Source: Candidatus Zipacnadia bacterium
Lineage (GTDB): Bacteria; Armatimonadota; Zipacnadia; Zipacnadales; Zipacnadaceae
Reading direction: 5' to 3'
DNA: 43,734 nt
NCBI GenBank assembly: GCA_029820565.1
Contig: JALGUR010000013.1
Location: 1 to 43,734, forward strand
In this document: one piece after another, positions 4,482 to 43,734 of the stretch
How positions within the stretch are numbered: position 1 is the first letter of the stretch
Layout of the letters: each line of letters starts with the position of its first letter
Notes under the pieces: generated by a model
Told to the model about the DNA's origin: nothing
Databases searched by the model: none
What the model saw: the letters and a program-made list of their open reading frames with translations, nothing else
Program-made: the position numbers and the translations under genes

Positions 4482-4510
4482 GTTCTTTCCTCCTTCACAA
4501 AATCCCGGTG

Positions 4511-4559: not shown

Positions 4560-4580
4560 TACCGAATATACGTTGTATAG

Positions 4581-6785: not shown

Positions 6786-6873
6786 CTGTTGTAAGCCTCC
6801 TTGACGATGTCAAATCCACTATTGCTGGATCCATCTGTGGCGGGCAGCCGTTTTGTTGATGTCCCCCGTGAAG

Positions 6874-7038: not shown

Positions 7039-7092
7039 TCATACGCCTCCTGGGAGATCGAGCACGCGGGCAGTGCCGATCATACCGCTATC

Positions 7093-7629
7093 CTATCTGG
7101 TTGCCGCCTGCTGATATTCTTCCTTCAAGGCTGTCTCCATAGCCTCCAGTGTCCGCTGTTGAATTTCAGCGGTCAGCTCTGCATCCTCGACCAGTTCTAA
7201 TGCTCCAGTAGGACACGCCTCCACGCAAGCCGGCGGCTGGCCTGCTTGTTGCCGGTCGATACACATATCACACTTGAGCGCCGTCTCGCCGTCAGCACTC
7301 ATCCTGATCATACCGAACGGGCAGGCAATAACGCAACTTCCACAACCGACACACAGCTCCTCGTCCAGTATCACCGGCCCATCGGGATCGGGCCTCTGTA
7401 TGGCATGTTGGGGGCATACGCTTGCGCAAGGCGGGTCCTCGCAGTGCTGGCAATGCAGGGGAACTGCCGCTTCTCCGATCGCGACTATAGCCATGCGCGG
7501 CTCGGGAGGCTGCTCCTGCTGGATTGCTTCGTAGAGCGTCGGCGAAGCTCCATGCGCCACAGCACAGGCTACCTCACAACTGTGACAACCCATGCATTTG
7601 GCAACATCTACAGTGATCACTTGCGGCAT
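7093..7629 (-). CDS. CooF/HycB-type polyferredoxin with four 4Fe-4S clusters
   Basis: 178 aa. Sixteen cysteines fall in four groups: C12/15/18/22 (CMGCHSCEVAC), C60/63/68/72 (CQHCEDPPCASVC), C93/96/99/103 (CVGCGSCVIAC) and C120/123/135/139 (CDMC...CVEAC). This is the pattern of CooF, HycB and DMSO-reductase B-type electron-transfer subunits, each binding four 4Fe-4S clusters. It lies 24 nt after the CODH gene, so it is the likely electron partner that feeds or drains CODH. No signal peptide is seen, so it should be cytoplasmic. The ribosome-binding site is AAGGGAAA. I leave the symbol blank because cooF is only the nearest named example. Confidence 0.9.
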   Translation of the reverse strand: MPQVITVDVAKCMGCHSCEVACAVAHGASPTLYEAIQQEQPPEPRMAIVAIGEAAVPLHCQHCEDPPCASVCPQHAIQRPDPDGPVILDEELCVGCGSCVIACPFGMIRMSADGETALKCDMCIDRQQAGQPPACVEACPTGALELVEDAELTAEIQQRTLEAMETALKEEYQQAATR

Positions 7630-7653
7630 AGAATTTCCCTTCTGCGTTTATCA

Positions 7654-19100: not shown

Positions 19101-20093
19101 CTGTATCTCTCGGTCGCGGCCGAAGAAGAAATCAGTGTCCTGGACGTCGAAATAGTCTAAGAAGCGATAGGGCCCGCCGCGCAGGACAGTGAGTTCTTTG
19201 CGCCGCCGCGAGCGTCGGGTGTGGCGGTGAGTAAACCAGTCAACCAGCTTCCCGGAGAATTCGTTGAATTCTCCTGCTTCGCGCACCAGCATATGTCGGG
19301 CGGACTGGCGAGATTGCAGCAGTCTGACTACCTCTGGCTGCAGCGAATGATACTCGACGCTGGACGGGCTTTCTAACTTCAACTCGGTGTATTTCTGCTT
19401 ATCACTGACTGGCACCAAGGAATTGACCCAGAATATCTTGCCCCCTTCGGCCGGGACATAATTCAGCAACGGCCGGTCGCGGTCAGTGTAGGCAGTGAAG
19501 ATAACCACCACGCTAAAGGCGTCAGTGATGATCTTACCGAGCGGCTGAAGTCCGGCCTCTATCTCGGCAGGGATAAGGGGGAGGTATTTACTCGCGAGGT
19601 CTCCTCCACACTTAACGACAACCAGCCGCGTCGAGTCTTCCAGGGCCAACGAGATGGTTTCTGGCTCATCCACCCCTGCTACTAACAGATGATAACCCGT
19701 GTCAGGCTCCAAATGTTGAGTATGCAAAGCCCGCTCCAACAGGTCATCCGGCTCCATAGTAAAAATAGTGGGGAAATAGCCGTCCTTGACCAGGCGAGAT
19801 AGTTGAGTGTGCCCCTCAGCCGGGCGAGCGGCAGATAACTTTTCTCGGAGCAATTGGCAGCGCTCGGCGTGGTCGGGGACTTTTTGGGCAAATGCTTCCA
19901 GGGCTGCGGTCCCGCGCCGCTCAGCGGCCAGTTCTTGGAAAGAATGTCCCGCCTGCTCGGTGGCCAGTTGCTCCAGTAGAGTACTGAGCCTAATGTCTTG
20001 GGGTGGCAGTTTGACGCTACTGCCAATAAACAGTACGTGCTGGCCGAGTCGGTGGCGGCGGCCTTTGATGTAGTCAGCAATGACTTTAAGCAT
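16152..20093 (-). CDS. Giant STAND ATPase with degenerate SIR2-like N-terminus, helical repeats and PQQ/BamB-like propeller
   Basis: 1313 aa from the ATG at 20093 (GGGTGA upstream). Residues about 20-300 look SIR2-like: LFIGSS at the start, then YFPTIFTMEPDDLLERAL and LVVVKCGGDL where active enzymes have TTNYDxLLE and a catalytic HG, so catalysis is doubtful. An nSTAND1-type ATPase follows: FFGRDREIQEVL, Walker A GRSGIGKTSL (347-356), Walker B VVVFLDQFEEFF (434-445) and VLVLREDF (475-482). A winged-helix-like part and HEAT-like repeats occupy about 640-940. The last 300 residues form seven to eight PQQ-type blades (SSPAV...VYxGSxDG.LYALD.TG). Similar architectures occur in bacterial defence and signalling proteins, but no antiphage role is shown here. 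It follows a tRNA gene on the same strand. Confidence 0.85.
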   Translation of the reverse strand: MLKVIADYIKGRRHRLGQHVLFIGSSVKLPPQDIRLSTLLEQLATEQAGHSFQELAAERRGTAALEAFAQKVPDHAERCQLLREKLSAARPAEGHTQLSRLVKDGYFPTIFTMEPDDLLERALHTQHLEPDTGYHLLVAGVDEPETISLALEDSTRLVVVKCGGDLASKYLPLIPAEIEAGLQPLGKIITDAFSVVVIFTAYTDRDRPLLNYVPAEGGKIFWVNSLVPVSDKQKYTELKLESPSSVEYHSLQPEVVRLLQSRQSARHMLVREAGEFNEFSGKLVDWFTHRHTRRSRRRKELTVLRGGPYRFLDYFDVQDTDFFFGRDREIQEVLDLIRSHPLTVIFGRSGIGKTSLIKAGVMARLLGVVEDETPGADEVWLPVYAHCEDDPTASIRQATIEAIGQAGYELPEELAEVPLGELLAQTAEITGQDVVVFLDQFEEFFVKLGQKVRDNFISQIQDYLDMDQPDPHLVLVLREDFVGELYELRDRLPDIMQNVYRLPKLDHHQAHSAILKPAVNFGIQVERDLADQIVEDLSREGVEPAQLQIVCHRLYEALSPGSHTITQHTYQRLGKAEKILADYLDYVLGQLTLGERRLARAILKDMVASSELKAARPRERIAQELGQSQETVERVLAKLVDYRLLRSVQRDKRRNYELVHEYVAEKVDDWMSEEEIKLKDVQDLLTRELNNFQKFSLLMGAEELRIIGEHRRELRISPEELDLIIRSAAAGRVDAEYWFSRATELADAHYSVLASLLTNSSQTVRETTYKHLSKHLHRELIPALVEGLNDEVPSVRRQARDYLETLQGELTRLLQTGPSDQQQVAAAGLGQIGSRHCERPLIEALTDQDEQLTETITDSLRQLGEEDSAQTLLKRLGAQPDQAWAVAYALGQLSVSDEALGRLTKAAQSDRATPSVMYALGLAQGLRREFDQAQANLQRALETTTSAIGRRYVQHAQQELVASQQQATTGTDCWLMFGGSPQHCAYLPQTLHPPLKQIWTTRTGGPIIASPVVADGLVYVGSRDNNFYALDSQRGTVRFTVTTDNHIEATAAVAEDFVVFGSTDGNLYALHAASGREGWRRQLAGPIRSAPNVADNRIFIGDEAGTLWAIDPTSGEVIWRVPTQDQILAAPAVAQGLVIIGSWDNSLYAYHIADGQLCWRIDTNGPVSSSPAISEGKVFCGSDDSMMYAIDLTGGQIVWQTPLGGRIRSSPAVSEDRVVTGCTDGFVYCLDKTTGEIVWKAETAEEVLASAVITGDIVYIGSKDGALYALDMETGESRWHYRTPYGIYSSPAVAEGTLFIGIAYYDVAAFSQA

Positions 20094-20135
20094 CGTCTTC
20101 ACCCGACAATTGGGCGACTTTATGGCCCTTGCGAA

Positions 20136-20179
20136 CAGACCACTCCCGCCCAGTAGCATCTGTAGCCTGGAGTGGTCTG
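20136..20179. repeat. 11-bp inverted repeat between tRNA and STAND gene
   Basis: CAGACCACTCC (20136-20146) and GGAGTGGTCTG (20169-20179) are perfect inverted copies separated by 22 nt. It is 20 nt downstream of the tRNA CCA end and 43 nt upstream of the STAND ATG. There is no T-run after it on the minus strand, so a plain intrinsic terminator is not supported; it may be an operator, processing site or termination structure. Confidence 0.6.
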
Positions 20180-27530: not shown

Positions 27531-29306
27531 TTATGATTTGCGGCGCAGGCGGCGATAGCCGGCTAATCCGCCTAAGCCCAGTAGCATCATAGTAATCGTG
27601 GCCGGCTCAGGGATATGCGCGTCGGCATAAAGGATAGCATTGTACGCGTCCAGCCGCCCGTAGCCATACTCGATGTGGGGGACGGAGTGGCCCAGGTCAT
27701 CCGCCGAGTTCTGGATATACTCGCGGAACTGCTGGTAGGTTATGCCCGGGTAGCGCGACTTGAGCAGCCCGGCGAAGCCGGAGACGATAGGGGCAGAAAA
27801 CGAGGTGCCGCCGAAAGCAAAGTCCAGCAGATCGTCGCCGAGCTCGTATTCCCCGGGCAGGAGCAATTCAAGCCACGCCCATGTGGACATGTCTATCGTA
27901 CTGATAGTAAACATTAGATCGCCTGGTGCTACTATGTCTAAGACGTCGCCGGAGGCGGCGTAGTTCGAGTACACGGAACGCTCACCGGTCCAGTCCACGG
28001 CGCCTACCGAGATGACCTCGGTCATATCAGCGGGAAAGTCTATACCACCGGGGTAGCCGGTCGCGTCTCCCGAGTTACCCGCGGCGCCAACGATTATGCA
28101 GCCCTGGGAGATGGCGTGCTGAATCGCCTCCTCCATCATTTGAATAGTCGCTGCCGGGATGGGCGGATAGCTGCCGAAGCCTTCCCGCAGGCCGAAGCTG
28201 AAGCTCATATTGATTACATCAGCGCCCTGATCAGCGGCGTACCGGATAGCGGCGGCGGCATCCTGGTCCCACCCCCACCCTTCGGGATTCACTACGCGCA
28301 CCGTCATTAGGCTGCAATTCCAGGCCATCCCCGCGATGTCCCCGCCAATAGGGTCAGTGTCGTCGTAATTGTTGGTGATGGCTCCGGCAATGCCCGCCAC
28401 CATAGTGCCGTGAGTCACGCCTGCGTCGGGCGCCCCGTCAGAATTATCATCCTCCGCGTTGCCGATGGCCGGGTCACTGCTATACGGATACTCTTCCTGC
28501 CACCAATCTGGATCCCAGATGGTAGGATATTCATCGTCACGAGGCATATAAGTGGCCTCATTGGCGGCCTCCGCAGCAGAGCCTATGTTGTCGCCTACAA
28601 AATCCCAGCCCCAGTAATCATCTATGAAGAGGTTTCCATCGTTGTCTATGCCATCATTAGGTATCTCCCCGGGATTATGCCAGATATTGCCACTTATCCC
28701 GTCGGAGGTGCCCATATCCTCGTGATAGATGCTAATGCCGCTGTCAATGATGGCAATCGTCGTGTCCGGGCTGCCGTGCTGCAGATACCAGGCCTCGGGA
28801 GCGTTGACATCAAAGAGGTAGTACTGGCCATAGTCCGTCTCAGGGTCCGCATCAATGCAGTACTCGTCGTTAGGGATATCCTGGGGGGGGGCATCGCAGA
28901 TGTAGAAGCGGCCGTGCCGGGAGGCTACTTCCGCCAGGGAGCTGTCGTTGATCTGCTGGAGAACTTGGTCAGTGGTAAAGCCGTAGGGCACACGAACAGT
29001 GGTCCAGCCCGGTACTTTGGAGTAGGCTTCAACAGTCACGCCGAGCTGAGTGGAGAGTTGCGTGGCGACGTCCTCAGTAGTCAACCCGGGATTAGGGCGC
29101 AGCAACACAGGATCAGTGGGCCGGGGCGCCAGAACCTGCGCCCTGGCCCTGCTCTGCTGCATTAGAAACTGTTCGCGCCAGCCAGCCAATGCGGTATGTG
29201 TACCGACGGTTACGTCAGCCTGCGCCGGCCCACAAGTCCCAACAGCGACAATAGCAAATAATATGATAGCGATAGTTATATTTGGTCTCAAACCCCTACT
29301 CGGCAT
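27531..29306 (-). CDS. Secreted subtilisin-like (S8) protease with PEP-CTERM tail
   Basis: 591 aa. Signal peptide in residues 1-30 (ITIAIILFAIVAV...AQA), then an inhibitor-type propeptide region up to about 150. The catalytic triad is complete: D188 (TIAIIDSG), H299 (THGTMVAG) and S502 (GGTSFSAP), with the oxyanion Asn near 411 (AAGNSG). A Ca-binding-like acidic insertion lies between 200 and 295. The C-terminus is a PEP-CTERM signal: IPEPAT (565-570), a hydrophobic helix and RRLRRKS. The protein should be exported and sorted to the surface by an exosortase, which is not in this window. A good promoter lies upstream. The substrate is unknown. Confidence 0.93.
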   Translation of the reverse strand: MPSRGLRPNITIAIILFAIVAVGTCGPAQADVTVGTHTALAGWREQFLMQQSRARAQVLAPRPTDPVLLRPNPGLTTEDVATQLSTQLGVTVEAYSKVPGWTTVRVPYGFTTDQVLQQINDSSLAEVASRHGRFYICDAPPQDIPNDEYCIDADPETDYGQYYLFDVNAPEAWYLQHGSPDTTIAIIDSGISIYHEDMGTSDGISGNIWHNPGEIPNDGIDNDGNLFIDDYWGWDFVGDNIGSAAEAANEATYMPRDDEYPTIWDPDWWQEEYPYSSDPAIGNAEDDNSDGAPDAGVTHGTMVAGIAGAITNNYDDTDPIGGDIAGMAWNCSLMTVRVVNPEGWGWDQDAAAAIRYAADQGADVINMSFSFGLREGFGSYPPIPAATIQMMEEAIQHAISQGCIIVGAAGNSGDATGYPGGIDFPADMTEVISVGAVDWTGERSVYSNYAASGDVLDIVAPGDLMFTISTIDMSTWAWLELLLPGEYELGDDLLDFAFGGTSFSAPIVSGFAGLLKSRYPGITYQQFREYIQNSADDLGHSVPHIEYGYGRLDAYNAILYADAHIPEPATITMMLLGLGGLAGYRRLRRKS

Positions 29307-32127: not shown

Positions 32128-33387
32128 ATGTATAGTGTGCGTTGCTTGGTGTGGGTATTAGCAGTGGTGTTGGTGGTAAGTTCGGCTGAGGCAAAACCGG
32201 TCTTCCGCACGCCGCCGGAGGGCGTGGTGGAAGTCACGGGAGTGCCCTATGGGCCGATTCTGGAGAGGGAGGATGGCTCAATAATGATGGCTAATGGGAC
32301 CGGGTATCGGATTTCCACTGATGGGGGTGTGCACTGGGGCGAAGAGCAGCCGCTGAACTGCGAAGGGCTCACCAGTGTGGACGGGCTTATTCGTCTGAAT
32401 TCCGGCGCTCTGTGTATGACCTTCAGCGGTCCGAAGGGGCTGTCCGTGGCTGTATCGGAGGACGAGGGAGAAACCTGGAGCGAAGGGTACCCAATCGAGA
32501 AGTTCGGCGGCACGCGAGCCGATTCTCTGATCGAGCTGGAAAGTGGCCGGCTGGTATATCCAGCGCGGCAGTGTTTCAGCAACAATAAGCACCCTGAACT
32601 GCTCTACGAGGACGTAATGTGCTATGGCAGTTGGCGGGGGATGAAGGTAGGACTGGAGGGGCACTACCATTATCCCGAACTGGACATCGCCGCGGTCAGT
32701 TACTCTGATGACCTGGGCAAGACCTGGGGGAGGTCGGGGTACTTGATGGGATGGTTTGACCACGACGGGGTGCCCAATGGTAAGGGTGGGATGACCGCCT
32801 GTGACGAACCCCAGGTGGTTGAATGTGCTGACGGACGGGTGGTATTTATGGCCCGCTCGACGGTGGGGCGGCTGGTACACTGCTATAGCAGCGATGGGGG
32901 CGCTACCTGGTCGGCCGTGCGGCCCACCGATTTGGCCGCTTGCTACTCGCCGTGCCGCTTGGCGCGCGTTCCCGGGACTGGTGACTTGCTGCTGGTGTGG
33001 AATCAGGTCAACAGTGCCGAGATTCGCCGCGGCTACCGCCGGGGGCGGCTGTCGGCGGCCATCTCCACAGATAGCGGGGCTACCTGGAAGAACTTCAAGA
33101 CTATTGAAGTCAGTGCCGGGCTGGACGATGTGCCCCGCGTCATTTGTGAGCAGGAGATTAAGCCAGTAGTGGGCATGCCCTGGGTAGGCCGAATACCCGA
33201 TGACTACGCCCGGTTCTACTACCCGTACCTGGACATCGCTGCGGGCAAGGTCTTTATCCGCTATGGGCGAGGCTGGTATGAGGAAGTAGAAGGCGAAGCC
33301 GTAGGCCCGGGCGAGAGGGCCCTGGAAGTAAAAGGCTCGGGCGAGCGGGTGATGCGCATCTACCCGCTGGAATACTTTTATGAGTAG
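32128..33387 (+). CDS. Array gene 1: secreted Asp-box (BNR/sialidase-like) protein
   Basis: 419 aa from ATG 32128, directly after AGAGGTGAGTAGT; a frame back to 32047 has no ribosome-binding site. Signal peptide MYSVRCLVWVLAVVLVVSSA with cleavage near AEA-KP. Five Asp boxes: STDGGVHW, SEDEGETW, SDDLGKTW, SSDGGATW, STDSGATW. Family marks shared with the other six copies are VVEVTGV near the N-terminus, GRLVYPAR, MGWFDHDGVPNG, CDEPQVVE, GRLVHCYSSDGG and MRIYPLEYFYE at the end. It ends YFYE, unlike the YFYQ of most copies, and has an extended C-terminal insertion (EEVEGEAVGPGE). Possible glycan-binding or hydrolytic role at the cell surface; no substrate can be named. Confidence 0.88.
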   Translation: MYSVRCLVWVLAVVLVVSSAEAKPVFRTPPEGVVEVTGVPYGPILEREDGSIMMANGTGYRISTDGGVHWGEEQPLNCEGLTSVDGLIRLNSGALCMTFSGPKGLSVAVSEDEGETWSEGYPIEKFGGTRADSLIELESGRLVYPARQCFSNNKHPELLYEDVMCYGSWRGMKVGLEGHYHYPELDIAAVSYSDDLGKTWGRSGYLMGWFDHDGVPNGKGGMTACDEPQVVECADGRVVFMARSTVGRLVHCYSSDGGATWSAVRPTDLAACYSPCRLARVPGTGDLLLVWNQVNSAEIRRGYRRGRLSAAISTDSGATWKNFKTIEVSAGLDDVPRVICEQEIKPVVGMPWVGRIPDDYARFYYPYLDIAAGKVFIRYGRGWYEEVEGEAVGPGERALEVKGSGERVMRIYPLEYFYE

Positions 33388-33427
33388 GCCAGCCGGGCGC
33401 GGGCCCAAGCGCATCACAACTTAGTAG

Positions 33428-33452
33428 TTTTCTGGCGCAGGGGTCAGCAAAA
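33428..33452 (+). promoter_or_regulatory. Conserved leader element before array gene 2
   Basis: TTTTCTGGCGCAGGGGTCAG followed by CAAAA. It is the TTTCTGGC-N6-GTCAGAAA element seen at 37429 and 42357, here with one inserted C in the right arm. It ends about 36 nt before the gene-2 ATG. Confidence 0.6.
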
Positions 33453-33488
33453 GTCCATTGTAACCACATTAGAAGAGAGGTGAGTAGT

Positions 33489-34745
33489 ATGGCTATACGA
33501 CTGGTATCGTCGGTACTGGTGTTAGTGGTGGTGCTTGTGGTGGGCAGTAGTGGGTCCGGGGCCGCTAAGCCGGTCTTCCGCAAGCCGCCGCCGGAGGGAG
33601 TCGTGGAAGTCGTGGGGGTTGCGGGGACGGGCAGCAGCCTGGTGGAGTTGAAGGACGGATCGGTGATGGTGGTCGGGGGGAGCAGCTATCGCATCTCCAC
33701 TGACGGCGGCGTGACCTGGGGGGAGGGCCAGTCCTTTAGTGGCGGGGCCGGTGGTGATGGCATCATCCGCCTGCAGTCGGGCGCTTTAGCGCTAATGAAC
33801 CGCGTCGCCACGGGCGGGAACCTGGAACGGGGCTGGCTGGGCGCCGAAATCCGGTTCTCTGAAGACGAGGGTCAGACGTGGGGAGAGCCTTTGCCCGTCA
33901 GGATGATGGGCACTCCCTATTATGACACGCTGATTCAACTCAGCACAGGGCGGCTGCTTTATCCGAGCCGTACCTGCTTCGGCAACCCCCAACATCCAGA
34001 CGTGGGCTACGGTGGCCATAGCACCTATCCGGAATTGGACATTGCCGCGGTGAGCCACTCTGATGACCTGGGCAAGACCTGGTACATCGGCATGAAAGAG
34101 CCGAAACTGGGCTGGGGACTCGACCAGTACGCCTCCAGCGTCCTGATGGGCTGGTTTGGTCCCGATGGGGAGCCCAATGGACAATTAGGCATAACCGCGT
34201 GTGACGAGCCCAGCGTGGCCGAGACCAAGGATGGTCGGGTGCTGTTCTTTGGCCGTTCCGCCGTAGGCCGGATTGTGTACAGTTATAGCAGCGACGGAGG
34301 CGAAGTCTGGGACGCGGTGCGGCCCACTGAGTTGGTGAGCTGCTATTCTCCCAATCGGCTACGGGCTATCCCGGCCACGGGCGACTTGATCTGCGTATGG
34401 AATCAGGTTTCGCCTGAAGAGAATGAGTACGGTTGGCGACGACGGCGCTTGTCGGCCGCTATCTCACAGGACAGCGGGGAGACCTGGGGCCACTTCAAGA
34501 CCCTGGAGCTCAGCACGGGACTGGAGGATATTGACCGCATCGAGCCCACACTGCCAATTTACTGGACAAGAGTGGGCAGCCAGCCGAAGCCGGTGCCGCC
34601 CGATGCGGCTCTGTTTCATTATCCCAATGTGAAGTTCGCCGGGGACAAAGTGTACATCATGTATGCGCGGGTTGGCGTGGTGGAAGGTAAATCGCAGAAC
34701 CAAGCAGTGATGCGCATCTACCCGCTGGAGTACTTCTACCAGTAG
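33489..34745 (+). CDS. Array gene 2: secreted Asp-box (BNR/sialidase-like) protein
   Basis: 418 aa from ATG 33489, after AGAGGTGAGTAGT. The signal peptide (MAIRLVSSVLVLVVVLVVGS) is followed by KPVFRKPPPEGVVEVVGV. Five Asp boxes: STDGGVTW, SEDEGQTW, SDDLGKTW, SSDGGEVW, SQDSGETW. It carries the NEYGWRRRRLSAAIS variant and VGSQPKPVPPDAA near the C-terminus, both shared with genes 5 and 7, so these three form a subgroup. Compared with gene 1 it has a different middle (PKLGWGLDQYASSVLMGWF). It ends MRIYPLEYFYQ. Substrate unknown; cell-surface glycan binding or cleavage is the best family-level guess. Confidence 0.88.
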   Translation: MAIRLVSSVLVLVVVLVVGSSGSGAAKPVFRKPPPEGVVEVVGVAGTGSSLVELKDGSVMVVGGSSYRISTDGGVTWGEGQSFSGGAGGDGIIRLQSGALALMNRVATGGNLERGWLGAEIRFSEDEGQTWGEPLPVRMMGTPYYDTLIQLSTGRLLYPSRTCFGNPQHPDVGYGGHSTYPELDIAAVSHSDDLGKTWYIGMKEPKLGWGLDQYASSVLMGWFGPDGEPNGQLGITACDEPSVAETKDGRVLFFGRSAVGRIVYSYSSDGGEVWDAVRPTELVSCYSPNRLRAIPATGDLICVWNQVSPEENEYGWRRRRLSAAISQDSGETWGHFKTLELSTGLEDIDRIEPTLPIYWTRVGSQPKPVPPDAALFHYPNVKFAGDKVYIMYARVGVVEGKSQNQAVMRIYPLEYFYQ

Positions 34746-34845
34746 CCCAGCCGCCGCCAGCGCACAATTGGATAATGCCCGAGCGTCTTACAGGTGCCGG
34801 GGTCGTATAAGCATGCCTTTACACTTTTGGAAAGTAGGTAACAGC

Positions 34846-36060
34846 ATGCGATTATTTTGCTTGGTAATGGTGTCGCTATTGATGGGTGTCGCCATACTGA
34901 CCAGCTCGGGACGCGCGGCACCGCAAGACCTGTTCCCGCCTAAAGTGCTGCCCAACGGGGTCGTAGAGGTTGTGGGTCTGGGCTGCCGGAGTTTGATTGA
35001 ACTCAAGGATGGCTCACTGTTAGCCAGCAATGGGCGAGTGTCCGCTGATGGTGGCCTGACCTGGACCGAGCCGCGTCCATTCGCCGCTGAAGGGGCCGAG
35101 GACATAAGTCCCTACGGCACGAGTCTCCTCCGGCTCAACTCCGGGGCCTTGGCGCTGGTATATAGAGGACAGGGTGACACGGACGCTACCGGGGCTAAAA
35201 TGTGGCTATCAGAAGATGAAAGTAACACCTGGGGGCCGCCACGCTCCATCAAACTACAGGGTGGCCCCTACCACGACACTATGATCCAACTTAGTAGCGG
35301 CCGTCTGTTGTACCCCAGTCGTATCGCCTATAGCGGCTCCCACCACACCGACCTCAAATCCAGTGGACATACCACTATCCCGGAGATGTGCGTTAGTTCC
35401 ATCCATTATTCGGATGACTTGGGGCAGAGGTGGAAAAGGGCACCGGGTTATCTGATTGGCTGGTTTGACTACCTGGGCACACCCAACGGCGATGCAGGAA
35501 TGACCGCCTGCGATGAGCCGTGTGTGGCGGAAACTGCCGATGGGCGGGTTTTGTTCTTCGCCCGCTCCCAGGCGGGGCGAGTTGTGTACAGTTATAGTAG
35601 CGATGAAGGAGAGCGGTGGACGGCAGTACGACCCACTGAGTTGGCTTCTTCGTTTTCGCCCTCTCGGCTACGGCGCATCCCGGCGACTGGCGACTTGATA
35701 TGCGTGTGGAATCAGGTCTCAGCCGAAGAGATCGAGCGCCGCGATTGGCGGGGGCGCCTGTCGGTGGCTATCTCCCAGGACAGTGGGGAGACCTGGGGGC
35801 ACTTTAAGACTATTGAGCTTGCCCCGGGCATGGCGGATATGGCCCACATCACCCCGGAGTTGCCGATTAAGTGGCGCCGTATTGACCAGCGCGAGGGCAA
35901 GCGCTCCAGCGATTATTTTTGTTACGCCAACGTGCGCTTTGTCGGCGATAAAGTGTACGTCATCTACAAGCGTGGTCGGCATGAGAAGAAAGAGGGTAAA
36001 ACGGTGCTCCGCCGAGAGATGCCGCTGCGCATCAACCCGCTGGAGTGGTTCTATGAATAG
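34846..36060 (+). CDS. Array gene 3: secreted Asp-box (BNR/sialidase-like) protein, divergent member
   Basis: 404 aa from ATG 34846 (GTAGGT 6 nt upstream). The leader lacks the TTTCTGGC element and the AGAGGTGA ribosome-binding site of its neighbours, and the signal peptide (MRLFCLVMVSLLMGVAILTSS) is unrelated to theirs. The mature start is PQDLFPPKVLPNGVVEVVGLG rather than KPVFRKPPP. Asp boxes: SADGGLTW, SEDESNTW (glycine lost), SDDLGQRW, SSDEGERW, SQDSGETW. The family end is changed to LRINPLEWFYE. It is the most diverged copy after gene 6 and perhaps the oldest or an independently acquired one. Confidence 0.87.
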   Translation: MRLFCLVMVSLLMGVAILTSSGRAAPQDLFPPKVLPNGVVEVVGLGCRSLIELKDGSLLASNGRVSADGGLTWTEPRPFAAEGAEDISPYGTSLLRLNSGALALVYRGQGDTDATGAKMWLSEDESNTWGPPRSIKLQGGPYHDTMIQLSSGRLLYPSRIAYSGSHHTDLKSSGHTTIPEMCVSSIHYSDDLGQRWKRAPGYLIGWFDYLGTPNGDAGMTACDEPCVAETADGRVLFFARSQAGRVVYSYSSDEGERWTAVRPTELASSFSPSRLRRIPATGDLICVWNQVSAEEIERRDWRGRLSVAISQDSGETWGHFKTIELAPGMADMAHITPELPIKWRRIDQREGKRSSDYFCYANVRFVGDKVYVIYKRGRHEKKEGKTVLRREMPLRINPLEWFYE

Positions 36061-36099
36061 TACAGCCACGCTATGAGATAGGGCGATCACAAGTTGGCA

Positions 36100-36125
36100 T
36101 TTTCTGGTACTAAGGTCAGAGAAAG
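36100..36125 (+). promoter_or_regulatory. Conserved leader element before array gene 4
   Basis: TTTTCTGGTACTAAGGTCAG followed by AGAAAG. The TCTGG and TCAGA arms are kept while the centre differs from the other copies. It ends about 33 nt before the ATG at 36159. Confidence 0.55.
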
Positions 36126-36158
36126 TCTGTATCTGCAATCGAAAAAGAGGTGAGTAGT

Positions 36159-37391
36159 ATGTATGATGCACGTTTGCTGTGGCCGGTGGCGGTATTGATG
36201 ACAATGTTTTTGGTGTCTGCTCGTGGACCAGCAGTAGCCAAACCGGTCTTCCGCAAGCCACCCCCGGAGGGTGTAATAGAGGTGTTGGCTGGCATTGGTC
36301 GCAGTTGGAGCCTTGTGGAACTGCAGGATGGCTCGCTAATGGCCGTGGGAGGAAGTAATTACAGAATCTCAACCGATGGGGGCCAGAGCTGGGGTGATTC
36401 GCAGGCACTGGGTGAGGGCGTCTCGGGTAATGGTATCATCCGGCTCAACTCCGGGGCCTTGGCCTTGACCGATGGGAAGAGACTATGGTTATCCGAGGAT
36501 GACGGAAAGACATGGGGACAGCCGCGGGACATTAGCATGCTCGGCTCCCCCTACTATGATACTCTGATTCAACTCAGCAGCGGTCGCCTGCTTGTCCCCA
36601 GCCGCACCTGCTATTCGTGTAAGCCGCCGGACTTAGCGTGCCAACCGCAGTCCCGGGGCACCTGGCATGGCCGCAGCGTAGCTGTGGAAGGCCACGGCCA
36701 CGCGCCTGAGTTAGATGTTGCCGCTGTCAGTCGTTCTGGTGATCTGGGCAAAACCTGGGAGCGCTCTGGTTATCTGATGGGCTGGTTTGACGAGGAAGGC
36801 ATCCCCAACGGCTATGGGGCCCACACCTCCTGTGATGAGCCGGGTGTGGCCGAAACTGCCGATGGCCGGGTGCTGTTCTTGGCTCGCTCGCAGGTCGGAC
36901 GGCTGGTGTACAGTTACAGCAGCGATGGTGGCGAGTCCTGGACGGCAGTGCGGCCTACTGAACTGGCCTCCTCCTACTCGCCGCCGCGTCTGCGGAGCAT
37001 ACCGCAGACCGGCGACTTGATATGTGTGTGGAACGAAGTCTCGGGCGAAGAGATTCGCCGCGGCTATCGACGGGGGCGACTGTCGGTAGCCATCTCGGAG
37101 GATAGCGGTGAGAGTTGGGGACACTTCAAGACCATTGAAGTGAGTGAGGGCTTGGAGGATGTGGAGCCTGTCGAGCCCGACGCGGCGATCAAGTGGGTGC
37201 GCGGGCGCGACGACGTCGGTGAACTACCCGAGGGTTTTTCGGTATTCCGCTATGCCAATGTGTGCTTCGCAGGGGATAAGGTCTACATATTGTACGCCCG
37301 CGAATGGCTGGAGGAGCGCGGCGAAGACGAAGCAGGTATGGCCCGAGAGCAAGTCCTGCGCATCTATCCGATAGAGTACTTCTATCAGTAG
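36159..37391 (+). CDS. Array gene 4: secreted Asp-box (BNR/sialidase-like) protein
   Basis: 410 aa from ATG 36159 after AAGAGGTGAGTAGT. Signal peptide MYDARLLWPVAVLMTMFLVS, then KPVFRKPPPEGVIEVLAGIG. Asp boxes: STDGGQSW, SEDDGKTW, SGDLGKTW, SSDGGESW, SEDSGESW. The segment SRGTWHGRSVAVEGHGHAPE near residues 165-184 is also present in genes 1 and 6 (GSWRGMKVGLEGHYHYPE, GTWKGQRYDVEGHGHTPE), and it has RRGYRRGRLS like them, so these form the second subgroup. Ends LRIYPIEYFYQ. Molecular function as for the other copies. Confidence 0.88.
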   Translation: MYDARLLWPVAVLMTMFLVSARGPAVAKPVFRKPPPEGVIEVLAGIGRSWSLVELQDGSLMAVGGSNYRISTDGGQSWGDSQALGEGVSGNGIIRLNSGALALTDGKRLWLSEDDGKTWGQPRDISMLGSPYYDTLIQLSSGRLLVPSRTCYSCKPPDLACQPQSRGTWHGRSVAVEGHGHAPELDVAAVSRSGDLGKTWERSGYLMGWFDEEGIPNGYGAHTSCDEPGVAETADGRVLFLARSQVGRLVYSYSSDGGESWTAVRPTELASSYSPPRLRSIPQTGDLICVWNEVSGEEIRRGYRRGRLSVAISEDSGESWGHFKTIEVSEGLEDVEPVEPDAAIKWVRGRDDVGELPEGFSVFRYANVCFAGDKVYILYAREWLEERGEDEAGMAREQVLRIYPIEYFYQ

Positions 37392-37428
37392 CCCAAGTGG
37401 GCCGGGCAAGCATATCACAAGTCGGTGG

Positions 37429-37450
37429 TTTCTGGCGTTAGGGTCAGAAA
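37429..37450 (+). promoter_or_regulatory. Conserved leader element before array gene 5
   Basis: TTTCTGGC (37429-37436), GTTAGG, GTCAGAAA (37443-37450). The arms pair over 8 bp with one G-T wobble, so the element may be an RNA hairpin or a protein-binding site. It ends 38 nt before the ATG. Confidence 0.65.
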
Positions 37451-37488
37451 GAGTATGTTGTAGCAATCTTAGAAGAGAGGTGAATATT

Positions 37489-38724
37489 ATGTATGTACGG
37501 ATGGTATTGTCGGCATTGGTGTTGGTGGCGGTGTTTGTGGTGAGCAGCAGTGGACCTGGAGTAGCTAAACCCGTCTGGCGCAAGCCGCCGCCGGAGGGGG
37601 TGGTGGAGTTAGTGGGCGTCGCGGGGTCAAAAGGTACTCTGGTAGAATTGCAGGATGGCTCGGTGATGCTGGTTCAGGGCGGCAGCTATCGCATCTCCAC
37701 TGATGGGGGGCTGACCTGGGGCGATTCCCAGTCGCTAGGTGAAGGTGTCTCGGGTAAGGGCATCATCCGCCTGCAGTCCGGAGCTCTGGCGCTGACGGGT
37801 GGGCAAAATATGTGGTTATCTGAAGACGAGGGTAAGACCTGGGGACCGGCCCTACCGCTCAGGACGATAGAGGGCCACGATGCCTGGAAGGACAACATGA
37901 TTCAGCTCAGTACTGGCCGACTGGTGCTGCCCAGTCACTACTGCTTCAGGAACCCTCAGCATCCTGATGTCGGCTATAGGGGACACAGCACTTACCCGGA
38001 GATTCTCGTTTCTCTGATTGCCTACTCCGACGACGAGGGGCAAACCTGGCACGTCGGCCCAGCGGAGTTGAAGCCCAACGTTTCCTGGGTCAAGGATATT
38101 GACGCATGGTCGGCGGGCATCCTCATGGGCTGGTTTGACTACGAGGGCACTCCCAACGGTGAGGGCGGGGTAACGGAGTGTTCCGAGCCCAATGTGGCCG
38201 AGACTAAAGACGGTCGGGTGCTGTTCTTCGCTCGCTCGCCAACGGGGCGGATAGTCTACAGCTACAGCAGTGATGGCGGCGAGACTTGGCTGGCGGTGCG
38301 GCCCACCGAACTGAACAGCTCTTCCTCACCGAATCGGCTCCGGCGTATCCCGCAGACCGGGGATTTCCTCTGTGTATGGAACCAGGTCTCGCCGGAAGAG
38401 AATGAGTACGGCTGGCGGCGCAATCGGTTGTCGGCGGCTATCTCGCGGGACGATGGCGCCACCTGGGAGAACTTCAAGACTCTGGAGCTGAGCGCGGGCC
38501 TGGACGACATTGAGCACCTTGAGCCCACGCTGCCGATAAAGTGGAGCCGAGTGGGCAGTAATCCCAAGCCGCTGCCAGCTGACTCGGCCATCTTCACCTA
38601 TCCCAATGTGTGCTTTGCCGGCGATAAAGTCTACATTATGTATCACCGCGCCTGGCACGAGGAGGACGGACGGAAGGTGGAGCAGGTAATGCGCATCTAC
38701 CCGGTAGAGTACTTCTATCAGTAG
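37489..38724 (+). CDS. Array gene 5: secreted Asp-box (BNR/sialidase-like) protein, near-twin of gene 7
   Basis: 411 aa from ATG 37489, after AGAGGTGAATATT. Signal peptide MYVRMVLSALVLVAVFVVSS, then KPVWRKPPPEGVVELVGVAG. Asp boxes: STDGGLTW, SEDEGKTW, SDDEGQTW, SSDGGETW, SRDDGATW. The stretch 37915-38170 is almost the same as 42865-43100 in gene 7 at the DNA level. The C-terminus stops at YFYQ where gene 7 and gene 6 have YFYQE, and the sequence after the stop is unrelated to theirs, so the 3' end lies at a rearrangement junction. Confidence 0.88.
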   Translation: MYVRMVLSALVLVAVFVVSSSGPGVAKPVWRKPPPEGVVELVGVAGSKGTLVELQDGSVMLVQGGSYRISTDGGLTWGDSQSLGEGVSGKGIIRLQSGALALTGGQNMWLSEDEGKTWGPALPLRTIEGHDAWKDNMIQLSTGRLVLPSHYCFRNPQHPDVGYRGHSTYPEILVSLIAYSDDEGQTWHVGPAELKPNVSWVKDIDAWSAGILMGWFDYEGTPNGEGGVTECSEPNVAETKDGRVLFFARSPTGRIVYSYSSDGGETWLAVRPTELNSSSSPNRLRRIPQTGDFLCVWNQVSPEENEYGWRRNRLSAAISRDDGATWENFKTLELSAGLDDIEHLEPTLPIKWSRVGSNPKPLPADSAIFTYPNVCFAGDKVYIMYHRAWHEEDGRKVEQVMRIYPVEYFYQ

Positions 38725-38745
38725 AGACTGTTGCAGAGGCCCCGC

Positions 38746-38775
38746 TTGACATTTTAGGGGGGCGGGGGTTATTAA
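38746..38775 (+). promoter_or_regulatory. Possible promoter downstream of array gene 5
   Basis: TTGACA (38746-38751), 18-nt spacer, TATTAA (38770-38775, 4/6). It would read toward the inserted gene at 39151 with a leader of about 370 nt. Weak evidence. Confidence 0.35.
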
Positions 38776-39132
38776 GATGGGGTAGTTGCAGCCAGTTGCG
38801 CCACTGCGGGCTGGTCCGAGTCACTATTCAGGTGCTGATTACTTGTATCGTGGTCAACTGCAAGCGGGTGGTGAGGCTCCTGGAAGCAGGCTGTGGCCCG
38901 CCCCGAGCAGTACTGTGCCTGGCGGGCCGGAAAGCGAGGTGAGAGAAGGCAGGAGGGGAAAAACTGAGCAAGGTCTGTGCCCTGTGCGGGTGCGAGTAGC
39001 CAAAATGGGTGACGCAGACCCCAGCAACCCAATAGCCGTTGACGCTCCAACCGGGATCTTTTCAAACTCCGAACGTGCCCTCTCCTTGAGGAGAGGTAAC
39101 TTTGCCAATACTCTCACCAAAGGGGGACATAC
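38776..39132. other. Gene-free stretch before the inserted gene, with a hairpin
   Basis: No supported gene. It contains CCTCTCC-TTGA-GGAGAGG (39079-39096), a perfect 7-bp stem with a tetraloop, about 55 nt upstream of the next gene. The rest has no similarity that I can see to the array spacers. A minus-strand open frame through it shows no conserved motif. Confidence 0.45.
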
Positions 39133-39150
39133 TTGAAGGAAGCGCTTCAT

Positions 39151-40971
39151 ATGCAGTTGTACACAGTATTGGCCACAGCCGCATGTCTGGTGTGTCTGGC
39201 TGTCGCCGGGCCATCGCAGGCCGCAGACGTGAGAGTGCTCAACAACCTGGTCTCAGAACTGCTGAACATCGAGGACCCGTCAGCAGGAGATACCCACACA
39301 TTTCTCAATCCCCGCGAGGGTTTTGTGTTCGTGCGGGTCGAGGGCGCCCAGGACCCCCCCGTCAGCATTGATGGCGAGACGGTGGTCATGCGCCAGGTCG
39401 GGCCCAGCCATGAGGGGATGTTGCACCGTCCGGAGGGCGAGCACGCCATCACGGTGGGAGGTCAAACCTCCTCGCGGTTGATTGTCCGTGCCGTCGGGGA
39501 ACTGTTCTACGACGTATACTCACTGTCGGCCAACCCCTATTGCCCGGAGATCGGCATACCGGGACGCGGCACCTACGACTGGCAGTGGCTGCGTGAGCAC
39601 GTCCTGGATCATTATAACTGCATCATCGCACACGACAATACACTTGGCCGCTGGGAGGAGATGCGCGAGTGGACATCGGAAGGCAAATGGTGGATGAGCC
39701 GAACGAACCTGAAATTCTATACCATGAAACATTTCGGAGGAGATGTATACGAGCAAAACGTTGACGCTCAATACGAGCACTTTTTCCAGAGCCCAGGTGT
39801 ATGGCATCCGCTGATGAAAGGCTTCTGGATAGACGAGTTCGGCACCGGCCATCCGAGCGACCTGTGGCCCATCTGGTGTGAGGCCATCCGGCGGATCAAG
39901 GCTACCCCGGAGTTCGAGGGCAGGCGGTGCTATGCCTATACTGATTCTGGCGGTGGTGATGCAGAACTCATACAGACGATTGTGGAGAGGGGCGGCAGAA
40001 TGGCCCGCGAATGGTACCTGGGCGAGCTAAGGCCCGCAAGCAGAGGCGAACCTGCGGCAGTCCTGATCAACGAGAATTGGGAGATGGAGCGTAGGCGTGC
40101 TTGGGAGGCAGCGGCTCCCGGGGCCCATTCCACAAACCTCATAGTGGTCCTGGGAACCTTCTCCTCACCTCCCGGAAGCCAGGACCTTTATCCTGATTAC
40201 GACTACAACGTCTTCCTGGACATGCAGATGCAGTTCGTCGCCACATCTCCCGTCTTTGAGGGCGCCGCCGGCGTCGTGGGCTACTACTCTCCCTACATGG
40301 CAGAGGAGCAGATGAGGCTCCTGGCTCGCCTGGTCCGCCACTACGCCATTGAGGGCCGCACGGACCGGTTTCTCGACGATTCCTATGAGCTTGATCATCT
40401 GACGAACCCCGACTTCCGCGATGGAACGAATGGTTGGGCATTAACGCCGGCCGAGCCGGACGCCATCGGTGCGGTGGTCGCCAAGGGCTTCGGAATTCTG
40501 CAGGGCAGATCGCAAGCACACATAGGCCATCCTGAACCGGCACATGGCGATACAGGGCTGCTGACCCGCCGCAGCAAAGCCGGCCCGAATCGCTTTGCGC
40601 AGGAGTTGCGCAACCTCCAACCAGGCAGGCTCTACTCGCTGCGTTTCTTCACCGGCAACTACCGCGATCTGATGGACGGTCGCTCGCGCGAGTATAAGCA
40701 CGCCTTGGGCGTTCAGGTCGAGGAAGGTGAGTTACAGACGGAATTGCAGTATGATGTCTATTCGGCGCTGGCATGGACGGCAAAGGTCGTTGGCCCGTTC
40801 GGGCCGAAGAATCCGTACGGGTGGAATTATCATCAGAGAGTTTTCCGCGCGACATCGGACACGGCGCTGCTGAGCTGCTCTGACTGGGCTGCTCCTAATG
40901 AGCCGGGCGGCGAGGCCGGTGAAGAGCTGATCTGGAATTTCATACAAGTGCAGCCGTACTTTGAGGGTTAA
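39151..40971 (+). CDS. Secreted protein of unknown function inserted in the array (glycoside-hydrolase-like plus C-terminal jelly roll)
   Basis: 606 aa from ATG 39151 (AAGGAAG 8 nt upstream); a TTG at 39133 after AGGGGG is possible. Signal peptide MQLYTVLATAACLVCLAVAG, cleavage near SQA-AD. Residues about 130-390 contain TIM-barrel-like segments (YDWQWLREHVLDHYNCIIAH, GFWIDEFGTGHPSDLW, AVLINENWEMERR) with acidic residues at strand ends that could be catalytic, as in glycoside hydrolases. Residues about 415-600 begin HLTNPDFRDGTNGWALTP, the opening of CBM_4_9-like carbohydrate-binding jelly rolls. No Asp boxes. It splits array genes 5 and 6. Glycan processing is inference. Confidence 0.72.
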   Translation: MQLYTVLATAACLVCLAVAGPSQAADVRVLNNLVSELLNIEDPSAGDTHTFLNPREGFVFVRVEGAQDPPVSIDGETVVMRQVGPSHEGMLHRPEGEHAITVGGQTSSRLIVRAVGELFYDVYSLSANPYCPEIGIPGRGTYDWQWLREHVLDHYNCIIAHDNTLGRWEEMREWTSEGKWWMSRTNLKFYTMKHFGGDVYEQNVDAQYEHFFQSPGVWHPLMKGFWIDEFGTGHPSDLWPIWCEAIRRIKATPEFEGRRCYAYTDSGGGDAELIQTIVERGGRMAREWYLGELRPASRGEPAAVLINENWEMERRRAWEAAAPGAHSTNLIVVLGTFSSPPGSQDLYPDYDYNVFLDMQMQFVATSPVFEGAAGVVGYYSPYMAEEQMRLLARLVRHYAIEGRTDRFLDDSYELDHLTNPDFRDGTNGWALTPAEPDAIGAVVAKGFGILQGRSQAHIGHPEPAHGDTGLLTRRSKAGPNRFAQELRNLQPGRLYSLRFFTGNYRDLMDGRSREYKHALGVQVEEGELQTELQYDVYSALAWTAKVVGPFGPKNPYGWNYHQRVFRATSDTALLSCSDWAAPNEPGGEAGEELIWNFIQVQPYFEG

Positions 40972-41039
40972 GGATGTACCCTCTCTTTTTTGAGAAGTGA
41001 GTTTGGCAACAGTCTGTGTCTAAGAAAGAGGTGAGCAGT

Positions 41040-42317
41040 ATGCATGCGAATGAGTTGGTGCTGATGTTAGTGGGAATAGGTATGATTATGTTGGCGACGG
41101 GTCGGGCGGCGGCGGCGGAGGGCTCAGTCGTCAGCACACCCCTGCCCGCCGGGGTAGTGGAACTGGTCGGAGTGGCGGGGATGAGCAATGGCCTGGTGGA
41201 ACTGAAGGATGGATCGCTATTGATGAACGATGGACGAATCTCCACCGACGGCGGTCTAACCTGGGGGGAAGGGCGGTCCTTTGGCGAAGGGATATCCGGC
41301 TCGGGCCTGCTGCGGCTGCAGTCCGGCGCTCTGGCCCTCACCCAGAGTGTGGGGTATGGCAAAGGAATGATGTGGGTATCCGCTGATGAGGCTCAGACCT
41401 GGGAGCCCTGTTCTCCCGTCAAGACACCGGGCGGGCCTGATTATGCTATGGCGGACGTGATGATTCAACTGAACAGCGGTCGGCTACTGTATCCCTGGGA
41501 CTGCGATTATGTGGGCGAGCACCCGGAGATGATGTATAAAGATATGCTGGCCTGGGGAACCTGGAAGGGTCAACGGTATGACGTTGAAGGTCACGGACAC
41601 ACGCCGGAATACTTCGCCACCGGCATCAGCTACTCCGATGACCAGGGCACAACCTGGCACTTGGACCGTCGCTTCGGCGGCGGCTGTCCGCTGGTGTTAA
41701 TGGGCTGGTTTGATTTCGAAGGAAACCCTAACGGCATGTGTGGCATCACGCCGTGCGGCGAGTCCAGCGTGGCCGAGACTAACGATGGCCGCGTGCTGAT
41801 GTTTGGCCGCTCAACCGTGGGGCGCATTGTCCACAGTTATAGCAATGACGATGGCAAGAGTTGGTCGGCGGTCTTACCTACCGAATTAGCGGCCTCCAAT
41901 TCCCCGCCGCGACTGCGGCGCATCCCTAAGACCGGCGACCTGCTATGCGTATGGAACCAGGTCTCGGGCGAAGAGATTCGCCGCGGCTATCGGCGGGGGC
42001 GGCTCTCGGCGGCCATCTCCAAAGACAGTGGCGCCACCTGGGAGAACTTCAAGACCATTGAGGTCAGCGAGGGCTTGGAGGATGGGCCTCGGGTCTATCC
42101 CGACCCGGAGAGCAGAATGGTGCGCGCCCGTCAGGATGTCGGTGAACTGCCTGATGGCTGGGCCTACTTTCACTACTGCAATGTGTGTTTTGCCGGCGAT
42201 AAAGTGTATATCATGTACGCTCGGGGCAGCCCCCTGTTAGGTATCGCCGAGCAGAACCTGCACAAGCAGGAGAGTGTTGTGCGCATCTACCCGGTAGAGT
42301 ACTTCTATCAGGAGTAA
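41040..42317 (+). CDS. Array gene 6: secreted Asp-box (BNR/sialidase-like) protein
   Basis: 425 aa from ATG 41040 after AAGAGGTGAGCAGT. Signal peptide MHANELVLMLVGIGMIMLAT then EGSVVSTPLPAGVVELVGVAG, so the KPVWRKPPP start is absent. Asp boxes: STDGGLTW, SADEAQTW (glycine replaced), SDDQGTTW, SNDDGKSW, SKDSGATW. Middle of the GTWKGQRYDVEGHGHTPE subgroup (genes 1 and 4). Ends VRIYPVEYFYQE. Its leader lacks a clear TTTCTGGC element; instead CAGTCTGTGTCTAAGAAAGA precedes the ribosome-binding site. Downstream sequence (GACCTGCGCCGGGGG) is repeated after gene 7. Confidence 0.87.
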   Translation: MHANELVLMLVGIGMIMLATGRAAAAEGSVVSTPLPAGVVELVGVAGMSNGLVELKDGSLLMNDGRISTDGGLTWGEGRSFGEGISGSGLLRLQSGALALTQSVGYGKGMMWVSADEAQTWEPCSPVKTPGGPDYAMADVMIQLNSGRLLYPWDCDYVGEHPEMMYKDMLAWGTWKGQRYDVEGHGHTPEYFATGISYSDDQGTTWHLDRRFGGGCPLVLMGWFDFEGNPNGMCGITPCGESSVAETNDGRVLMFGRSTVGRIVHSYSNDDGKSWSAVLPTELAASNSPPRLRRIPKTGDLLCVWNQVSGEEIRRGYRRGRLSAAISKDSGATWENFKTIEVSEGLEDGPRVYPDPESRMVRARQDVGELPDGWAYFHYCNVCFAGDKVYIMYARGSPLLGIAEQNLHKQESVVRIYPVEYFYQE

Positions 42318-42356
42318 GACCTGCGCCGGGGGCGAATTGTATGACAAGTTAGTATT

Positions 42357-42378
42357 TTTCTGGCGTTAGGGTCAGAAA
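42357..42378 (+). promoter_or_regulatory. Conserved leader element before array gene 7
   Basis: TTTCTGGC (42357-42364), GTTAGG, GTCAGAAA (42371-42378), identical to the gene-5 element. It ends 39 nt before the ATG at 42418. Confidence 0.65.
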
Positions 42379-42417
42379 GAATCTGTTCGTACCAATCTCA
42401 AGAAAGAGGTGAGTAAT

Positions 42418-43671
42418 ATGTATGTACGAATGCTATGGTCGGTATTGGTGTTAGTGGCGGTGCTTGTGGTGGGCAGCAGTGGACCTGGGGTAGCTAAGCC
42501 TGTGTGGCGCAAACCGCCGCCGGAGGGTGTGGTGGAGTTAGTGGGCGTCGCGGGGTCAGGGAGCAGTCTGGTAGAGTTGAACGATGGCTCAATAATGCTG
42601 GTGAAGGGCGGCAGCTATCGCATCTCTACCGATGGGGGCTTGACCTGGGGTGATTCCCAATCCCTGGGTGAGGGCGTCTCGGGCAATGGTATCATTCGCC
42701 TGCAGTCGGGGGCTCTGGCGCTGACGGGGGGCCTAAATATGTGGTTATCCCACGACGAAGGCAAGACCTGGGGACCGGCCTTGCCGCTCAGAACGATAAA
42801 GGGCACCGGGGTCGGCGGCCAACCATACTATCATGACAGCATGATTCAACTCAGTACTGGGCGACTGGTGCTGCCCAGTCACTACTGCTTCAGGAACCCT
42901 CAGCACCCTGATGTCGGCTATGCGGGACACAGCACGTACCCGGAGCTTCTCGTTTCTCTGATTGCCTACTCCGACGACGAGGGGCAAACCTGGCACGTCG
43001 GCCCAGCGGAGTTGAAGCCTAATGTTTCCTGGGTCAAGGATATTGACGAATGGTCAGCCGGCATCCTCATGGGCTGGTTTGACTACGAAGGTACTCCCAA
43101 CGGCGAGGGCGGGGTAACGGAGTGTTCGGAGCCCCATGTGGCCGAGACCAAAGATGGTCGAGTACTGTTCTTTGCTCGCTCGCCGACGGGGCGGATAGTC
43201 TACAGCTACAGCAGTGATGGCGGCGAGTTGTGGCTGGCGGTGCGGCCGACCGAACTGAACAGTTCTTCCTCACCGAATGTACTCCGGCGCATCCCGCAGA
43301 CCGGAGATTTGCTATGTGTATGGAACCAGGTCTCGCCGGAAGAGAATGAGTACGGCTGGCGGCGCAATCGCTTCTCAGCGGCTATCTCCCGGGACGATGG
43401 CGCCACCTGGGAGAACTTCAAGACTCTCGAGCTGAGCGCGGGACTGGACGACATTGACCGCCTTGAGCCTACGCTGCCGATTAAGTGGAGCCGAGTGGGC
43501 AGTAATTCCAAGCCGCTGCCACCTGACCGGGCCATCTTCACCTATCCCAATGTGTGCTTTGCCGGCGATAAAGTCTACATTATGTATCACCGCGCCTGGT
43601 ACGAGGAGGACGGACGGAAGGTGGAGCAGGTGATGCGCATCTACCCGGTAGAGTACTTCTATCAGGAGTAA
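42418..43671 (+). CDS. Array gene 7: secreted Asp-box (BNR/sialidase-like) protein, near-twin of gene 5
   Basis: 417 aa from ATG 42418 after AAGAGGTGAGTAAT. Signal peptide MYVRMLWSVLVLVAVLVVGS then KPVWRKPPPEGVVELVGVAG. Asp boxes: STDGGLTW, SHDEGKTW, SDDEGQTW, SSDGGELW, SRDDGATW. It differs from gene 5 by a six-residue insertion (KGTGVGGQPYYHD against EGHDAWKD) and scattered substitutions, and ends YFYQE. The neighbourhood around its stop matches the end of gene 6. A surface-exposed or secreted glycan-binding role is inferred only from family. Confidence 0.88.
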   Translation: MYVRMLWSVLVLVAVLVVGSSGPGVAKPVWRKPPPEGVVELVGVAGSGSSLVELNDGSIMLVKGGSYRISTDGGLTWGDSQSLGEGVSGNGIIRLQSGALALTGGLNMWLSHDEGKTWGPALPLRTIKGTGVGGQPYYHDSMIQLSTGRLVLPSHYCFRNPQHPDVGYAGHSTYPELLVSLIAYSDDEGQTWHVGPAELKPNVSWVKDIDEWSAGILMGWFDYEGTPNGEGGVTECSEPHVAETKDGRVLFFARSPTGRIVYSYSSDGGELWLAVRPTELNSSSSPNVLRRIPQTGDLLCVWNQVSPEENEYGWRRNRFSAAISRDDGATWENFKTLELSAGLDDIDRLEPTLPIKWSRVGSNSKPLPPDRAIFTYPNVCFAGDKVYIMYHRAWYEEDGRKVEQVMRIYPVEYFYQE

Positions 43672-43734
43672 GACCTGCGCCGGGGGCCAATTGTATCACA
43701 AATTAGTACTTTTCTGGCGTTAGGGTCAGAAAGA
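43672..43734 (+). repeat. Start of another array spacer at the right edge
   Basis: GACCTGCGCCGGGGG..., then TTTCTGGC-GTTAGG-GTCAGAAA (43711-43732), the same leader as before gene 7. The window ends inside this spacer. Another array gene is therefore expected beyond the edge. Confidence 0.75.

Follow-up and report, generated by a model that had tools for sequence, protein, structure and literature searches.

A mosaic cluster of probably secreted Asp-box propeller proteins, with a conserved candidate pocket, in a Zipacnadia bacterium

Among the proteins of solved structure, the nearest described counterpart of the family reported here is the GH181 sialidase Amuc_1547 (Am1547) of Akkermansia muciniphila, a six-bladed Asp-box propeller in which Glu218, Arg234 and Arg305 have been named as catalytic or carboxylate-binding (PMC10067855, PMC12018670). 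In GH181, His349-Gln350 replaces the tyrosine of GH33, and Gln367, a B domain and a CBM-like domain are further hallmarks (PMC10067855). The GH33 sialidases (NanI, NanA, the Micromonospora sialidase, Neu2) belong to the same fold superfamily and have the Asp boxes as well as the Glu and two Arg positions. By domain family the closest proteins are the Pfam BNR_2 (PF13088) members of Armatimonadota, Planctomycetota, Lentisphaerota and others; homologs 40-70% identical to ours occur in a few genomes of these phyla, with one or two copies per site. The PL24/PL25 ulvan lyases likewise are BNR-type propeller enzymes acting on polysaccharides, using His, Tyr and Arg (PMC13193363); compared by description only, they differ in being seven-bladed BNR_4 (PF15892) proteins, a family to which ours have no match. 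Finally, the bacterial class in question, Zipacnadia, has been described as acetogenic and nearly devoid of extracellular CAZymes, only one extracellular CAZyme family being reported for it and sialidases going unmentioned in the main text (PMC10290634).

How does the present locus compare? The window, that is, the whole 43,734-nucleotide stretch of Candidatus Zipacnadia (Armatimonadota) DNA that was analysed, ends in an array of paralogous genes on the plus strand, g1 to g7 (Table 1), with an eighth copy, g8, just beyond its edge. In contrast to the one or two BNR_2 copies per site seen elsewhere, this is an eight-copy mosaic array in a genome with at least three other BNR arrays. The seven paralogs of 404-425 aa and the signal peptides listed in the initial annotation were borne out: all genes are complete, read from the ATG at their left coordinate, begin with a hydrophobic, signal-peptide-like leader, and pass the Pfam BNR_2 cut-off (E 4e-27 to 2e-18). 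Some of its details required amendment. The paralogs do adjoin, but the tandem run is broken by an unrelated 612-aa gene in the 2.3-kb interval that separates g6 from g5; the five strict S-x-D-x-G-x-x-W boxes ascribed to every copy are present in g1, g2, g4, g5 and g7, but g3 and g6 have four, their fifth being degenerate; and the C-terminus said to be common to all, RIYPxEYFYQ, is indeed conserved throughout, in the looser form RI(Y/N)PxE(Y/W)FY. As shuffled sequences yield only 0.004-0.016 strict boxes per protein, the boxes in g1-g7 are not due to chance. Might the copies be assembly duplicates, as the annotation had allowed for? At 47-91% amino acid identity they are too divergent, and the contig (C58) is not a contaminant either, since its NadA is 83% identical to that of a congeneric genome; artefact and contamination are thereby ruled out.

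Table 1. Features of the array and its surroundings, in window positions.
Feature	Position	Strand	Remark
Divergent neighbour, secreted BNR_2 + laminin-G-like (LamG_3) protein, 701 aa	29801..31906	-	outside array family
g1, secreted BNR_2 propeller protein, 419 aa	32128..33387	+	nearest relative G014_C196, another genus of the family
Conserved spacer, TTTCTGGY-N6-GTCAG at 33429, with AGAGAGGTGAGTAGT ribosome-binding region	33388..33488	+	before g2
g2, secreted BNR_2 protein, 418 aa	33489..34745	+	array-specific clade, NEYGWRR
g3, secreted BNR_2 protein, 404 aa	34846..36060	+	base of array-specific clade; four strict Asp boxes
Spacer with TTTCTGGY-N6-GTCAG element at 36101	36061..36158	+	before g4
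g4, secreted BNR_2 protein, 410 aa	36159..37391	+	body groups with G014_C240/C241 and G006
Spacer with TTTCTGGY-N6-GTCAG element at 37429	37392..37488	+	before g5
g5, secreted BNR_2 protein, 411 aa	37489..38724	+	recent duplicate of g7 (91% aa, dS 0.28)
612-aa protein, N-terminal signal-like segment, no Pfam family	39133..40971	+	directly upstream of g6
g6, secreted BNR_2 protein, 425 aa	41040..42317	+	groups with Planctomycetota homolog (100/100)
Spacer with TTTCTGGY-N6-GTCAG element at 42357	42318..42417	+	before g7
g7, secreted BNR_2 protein, 417 aa	42418..43671	+	array-specific clade
114-bp g7 tail + spacer	43621..43734	+	exact repeat after 19-N gap just outside window

The array does run past the window, as had been proposed. 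Contig C58 extends 497 bp further, with a 19-N scaffold gap (43735-43753) on either side of which the same 114 bp occur (43621-43734 = 43754-43867); the 114 bp at the edge of the window are the tail of g7 with its spacer, and copy 8 starts near 43899, beyond the gap. Contig C157 matches, at its end, the final 114 bp of C58; it contains the remainder of copy 8 and, a few bp beyond, a fragment covering the C-terminal part of an MTTB (trimethylamine methyltransferase) gene. In copy 8, C157 differs from C58 by some substitutions and a 49-bp deletion, so that this copy exists in two sequence versions. In the simplest reading, with the join deduced from exact overlaps, the array would comprise eight copies and then end.

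Each copy has a ribosome-binding region, usually AAGAGAGGTGAGTAGT, directly before its ATG. Upstream of g2, g4, g5, g7 and g8 lies the element TTTCTGGY-N6-GTCAG, of which this genome has no other mismatch-free site. As an RNA element the conserved spacer was rejected: Rfam gave no match, folding was no better than in shuffles, and pair counting revealed no covariation (96% of cells pair, without change on both sides). It is treated here as a sequence element only.

What can be said about the fold and the candidate pocket? An AF2 model of mature g4, computed with 19 sequences (pLDDT 89, pTM 0.90), found almost exclusively sialidases as its best Foldseek matches (E 4e-11), on which its global superposition is weak (TMq 0.35-0.58, rmsd 7-18). 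A profile search of PDB sequences had GH181 Am1547 as top match (E 5.5e-14), with GH33 next. In the profile alignment, g4 residues E230, R246 and R308 (counted from the GTG at 36150) pair with Am1547 chain positions 195, 211 and 282, which, with an offset of 23, are E218, R234 and R305 of the published GH181 numbering, and none of the three varies among the 32 homologs compared. Tyr368 is kept in 31 of the 32, being Gln only in the Lentisphaeria homolog, and His182, R384 and R404 are kept in most. His182 lies 48 residues before E230, much as GH181 His171, reported as substrate-binding, lies 47 before the catalytic Glu, a likeness in sequence that is suggestive only. A profile search with the C-terminal part aligned neither Tyr368 nor a third Arg to sialidase residues, R384 or R404 near the C-terminus being possible substitutes for the latter. 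In contrast to GH33, neither the N-terminal RIP-type Arg (comparing the 32 homologs) nor, in the short segment ahead of the first Asp box, an Asp following that motif is conserved at the sequence level. In contrast to GH181, the proteins of about 410 aa end with propeller strands, leaving no room for the B and C-terminal CBM-like domains, and have Tyr368 in a stretch that may correspond to that of His349-Gln350. With the Glu and two Arg matched and the RIP Arg not conserved, we place them in the sialidase superfamily, but in neither GH33 nor GH181. The earlier call of a BNR/sialidase-type propeller is thus right as to fold superfamily, with Pfam scores above the gathering threshold, multiple Asp boxes and six blades, but the sialidase signature is incomplete.

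The subfamilies differ around a near-invariant GHxxxPE motif. In g1, g4, g6 and most homologs outside the array, it is preceded by a loop of about 17 aa (YEDxxxxGTWRGxxxxVEGH-like), which is absent from g2, g3, g5, g7 and g8; in g2, g5, g7 and g8, up to about 20 residues are inserted instead behind the Asp box that follows GHxxxPE. Taken together, we consider it reasonably probable that the locus is a mosaic cluster of eight secreted six-bladed Asp-box propeller enzymes that trim terminal residues off environmental glycans. Each protein, predicted from its leader to be exported, would have a pocket, formed by the invariant Glu/Arg/Arg and probably joined by Tyr368 and His182, for cleaving off a terminal sugar of acidic or amino type, and the subfamilies would differ in specificity by virtue of the loop swap, which may thus control the choice of substrate. 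Some homologs outside the array have no signal peptide, so that secretion is not a trait of the family as a whole.

A classic sialic-acid substrate is not favoured. That the proteins are genuine sialidases, or ulosonic acid hydrolases of the KDN/Kdo type, which differ slightly in the linkages they prefer, is unlikely, although their nearest solved relatives are all sialidases, the Glu has its counterpart, as do two of the three Arg that bind the carboxylate, and R384 or R404 near the C-terminus could supply the third, much as Q367 serves in GH181 from the C-terminal side. The published account of the class makes no mention of sialidases in its main text (PMC10290634), and this genome yielded in a search no convincing NanE-type gene of sialic-acid catabolism but only weak, partial TIM-barrel matches. 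Together with the lack of a conserved RIP-type Arg near the N-terminus, this argues that plain sialidases are probably not what the array encodes.

Asp-box propellers can also do without catalysis, as those of the sortilin type do. Secreted, lectin-like glycan-binding propellers would agree with the fact that we found no homolog with measured activity; the strict invariance of Glu, Arg and Arg at the catalytic positions of GH181 and GH33, however, makes this quite improbable, and the enzyme reading remains the preferred one.

What does the ancestry of the copies imply for their diversity? In a tree of 32 homologs, g1 groups with G014_C196 (support 100/100), g4 with copies from genomes G014 and G006 (100/98), and g6 with a copy from Planctomycetota (100/100); the nearest kin of these three are thus in other genera or phyla. 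The remaining copies, g2, g3, g5, g7 and g8, form a clade confined to the array (96/94). A test of the whole array as one clade is rejected (dlnL 295, p 8e-5), and the array is not the product of a single tandem amplification. Plain amplification of one enzyme for dosage has in its favour that g5, g7 and g8 are 83-91% identical in amino acid sequence and have their spacers in common, but given the rejected monophyly, and with most pairs only 47-68% identical at dS > 1, it has little chance of explaining the whole. The two subgroups originally drawn from an internal segment fared unequally: NEYGWRR marks a true clade, g2, g5, g7 and also g8, but RRGYRRGRL, seen in g1, g4 and g6, is common to most homologs outside the array and is therefore ancestral. 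With dN/dS at 0.16-0.31 throughout, and at 0.18 in the youngest pair, g5/g7, all copies are under purifying selection.

A special case is g4, which combines an array-type spacer and leader with a body from another subfamily. For its N-terminal part, grouping with the array clade is not rejected (p 0.26), while its body rejects it (p 0.0002); homogenisation of the 5' end by gene conversion is suggested by this pattern, not proven. Generally, we envisage that several old subfamilies were gathered at one site, partly across species, after which one of them (g2/g5/g7/g8) would have duplicated locally, together with its shared spacer and 5' leader. Of the two interpretations offered by the initial annotation, substrate diversification in glycan breakdown is the better supported, resting on old subfamilies side by side, purifying selection, the invariant Glu/Arg/Arg, the loop swap and glycan-degradation neighbours: most likely, old subfamilies and a few recent duplicates at one site cut different sugars off natural glycans. 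The other, a repertoire for surface or antigenic variation, with the cell's exterior altered by recombination between copies, could draw on the tandem paralogs with their conserved ends and spacers and more variable interior, on a local surplus of identity shared by g4 and g7 towards the 5' end and on the two versions of copy 8, but is highly improbable, as the dN/dS values are low, several copies represent old subfamilies conserved across genera and phyla, no anchor domain, phase-variation repeat or invertible element was seen, neither diversifying selection at the gene level nor an expression-site/silent-copy layout was found, and every copy is equipped with a start and a ribosome-binding region of its own and is thus no silent cassette.

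The genome as a whole is rich in such propellers: about 74 distinct BNR_2 frames were counted over 3.4 Mb. Three more tandem BNR_2 arrays are found in it (genome G000), at C115:17-31 kb (L044, 9 genes), C64:7.6-17.9 kb (L045, 8) and C2:3-12.5 kb (L046, 6), each of its own family, some genes being double-length (750-790 aa, as with some in C115) or having LamG. Identity is about 22-32% between the BNR arrays of the genome and mostly 30-78% within them. Matches are far fewer (1-37) in most relatives from the class, the other rich genome being G014; the counts for the richest genomes are to be read as at least that many. The array family itself is rare, with a match at E 1e-60 in 12 of 251 Armatimonadota genomes and no close copies in the two congeneric ones. 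The genome falls into the GTDB family of one Guaymas Basin Zipacnadia MAG, and its family-level relatives include the Ca. Zipacnadia MAG Meg22_1012_Bin_125 (class Zipacnadia, Armatimonadota). The array bacterium, which is uncultured, is probably acetogenic; the window has, at 243-9600 on the minus strand, a CODH/acetyl-CoA synthase cluster of the Wood-Ljungdahl pathway, ACS and CODH being confirmed by Pfam, in line with the acetogenic lifestyle of the class (PMC10290634). Also on the minus strand are a 1335-aa protein with an nSTAND1 NTPase, HEAT repeats and a PQQ-type propeller (16152-20159) and a secreted S8 subtilase with a C-terminal PEP-CTERM sorting motif (27531-29306). The cluster is real, unusual and mosaic, and its propeller enzymes are probably secreted; CAZy-type annotation may overlook such proteins. 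If they are enzymes, these bacteria play a larger part in the turnover of sediment glycans than has been recognised, and a natural series of paralogs is at hand for mapping specificity in the sialidase fold.

Homologs in other genomes are found near GH3, DUF4838 with a GH67 N-terminus, GH29 fucosidase, ThuA, sulfatase and a partial GH2 domain, and in the present genome a PIG-L deacetylase lies between two copies on C74. A search of 41 related genomes found homologs of the 612-aa protein in 23, most of them encoded by longer frames (850-1080 aa); a similar gene followed by a BNR homolog also occurs in the congeneric genome G001, and at L049:2931-7014, in a congeneric genome, a longer relative is situated directly upstream of a BNR-family gene. 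A PDB search with it gave no match, and its single-sequence model (pLDDT 30) is meaningless.

MTTB genes are few in this genome, with seven loci. Besides the fragment after copy 8, an MTTB gene lies 1.5 kb from one copy on C143, another follows G014_C196 at a distance of about 0.1 kb, and a further one is 0.6 kb away from the G006 copy; by a rough, post hoc hand estimate from locus counts over the 15 loci considered in three genomes, four neighbours within 2 kb compare with about 0.2 expected, which we regard as a lead only. It would be a long shot that the proteins are a new propeller glycosidase family, expanded into mosaic clusters in acetogenic bacteria, which releases methylated sugars, amino sugars or quaternary-amine conjugates, the methyl groups passing into the Wood-Ljungdahl pathway via neighbouring MTTB-type methyltransferases. 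MTTB genes or fragments beside, or a few kb from, BNR-family genes are located at L013:10646-10999, L037:2652-4028, L042:8996-10516, L040:6619-8976 and L010:6031-7502, and class III aminotransferases are likewise met repeatedly, as are methyltransferases of the URO-D type. At L010:1-1190 (C15), a family copy without signal peptide is split into two frames at the contig edge, being either a damaged copy or an assembly error. Two-copy sites of the family exist in G016 (L041:8605-11252), where the copies come from different subfamilies, and in a marine Pirellulales MAG (L022:3052-4356 and 7252-8565), where they adjoin a sulfatase.
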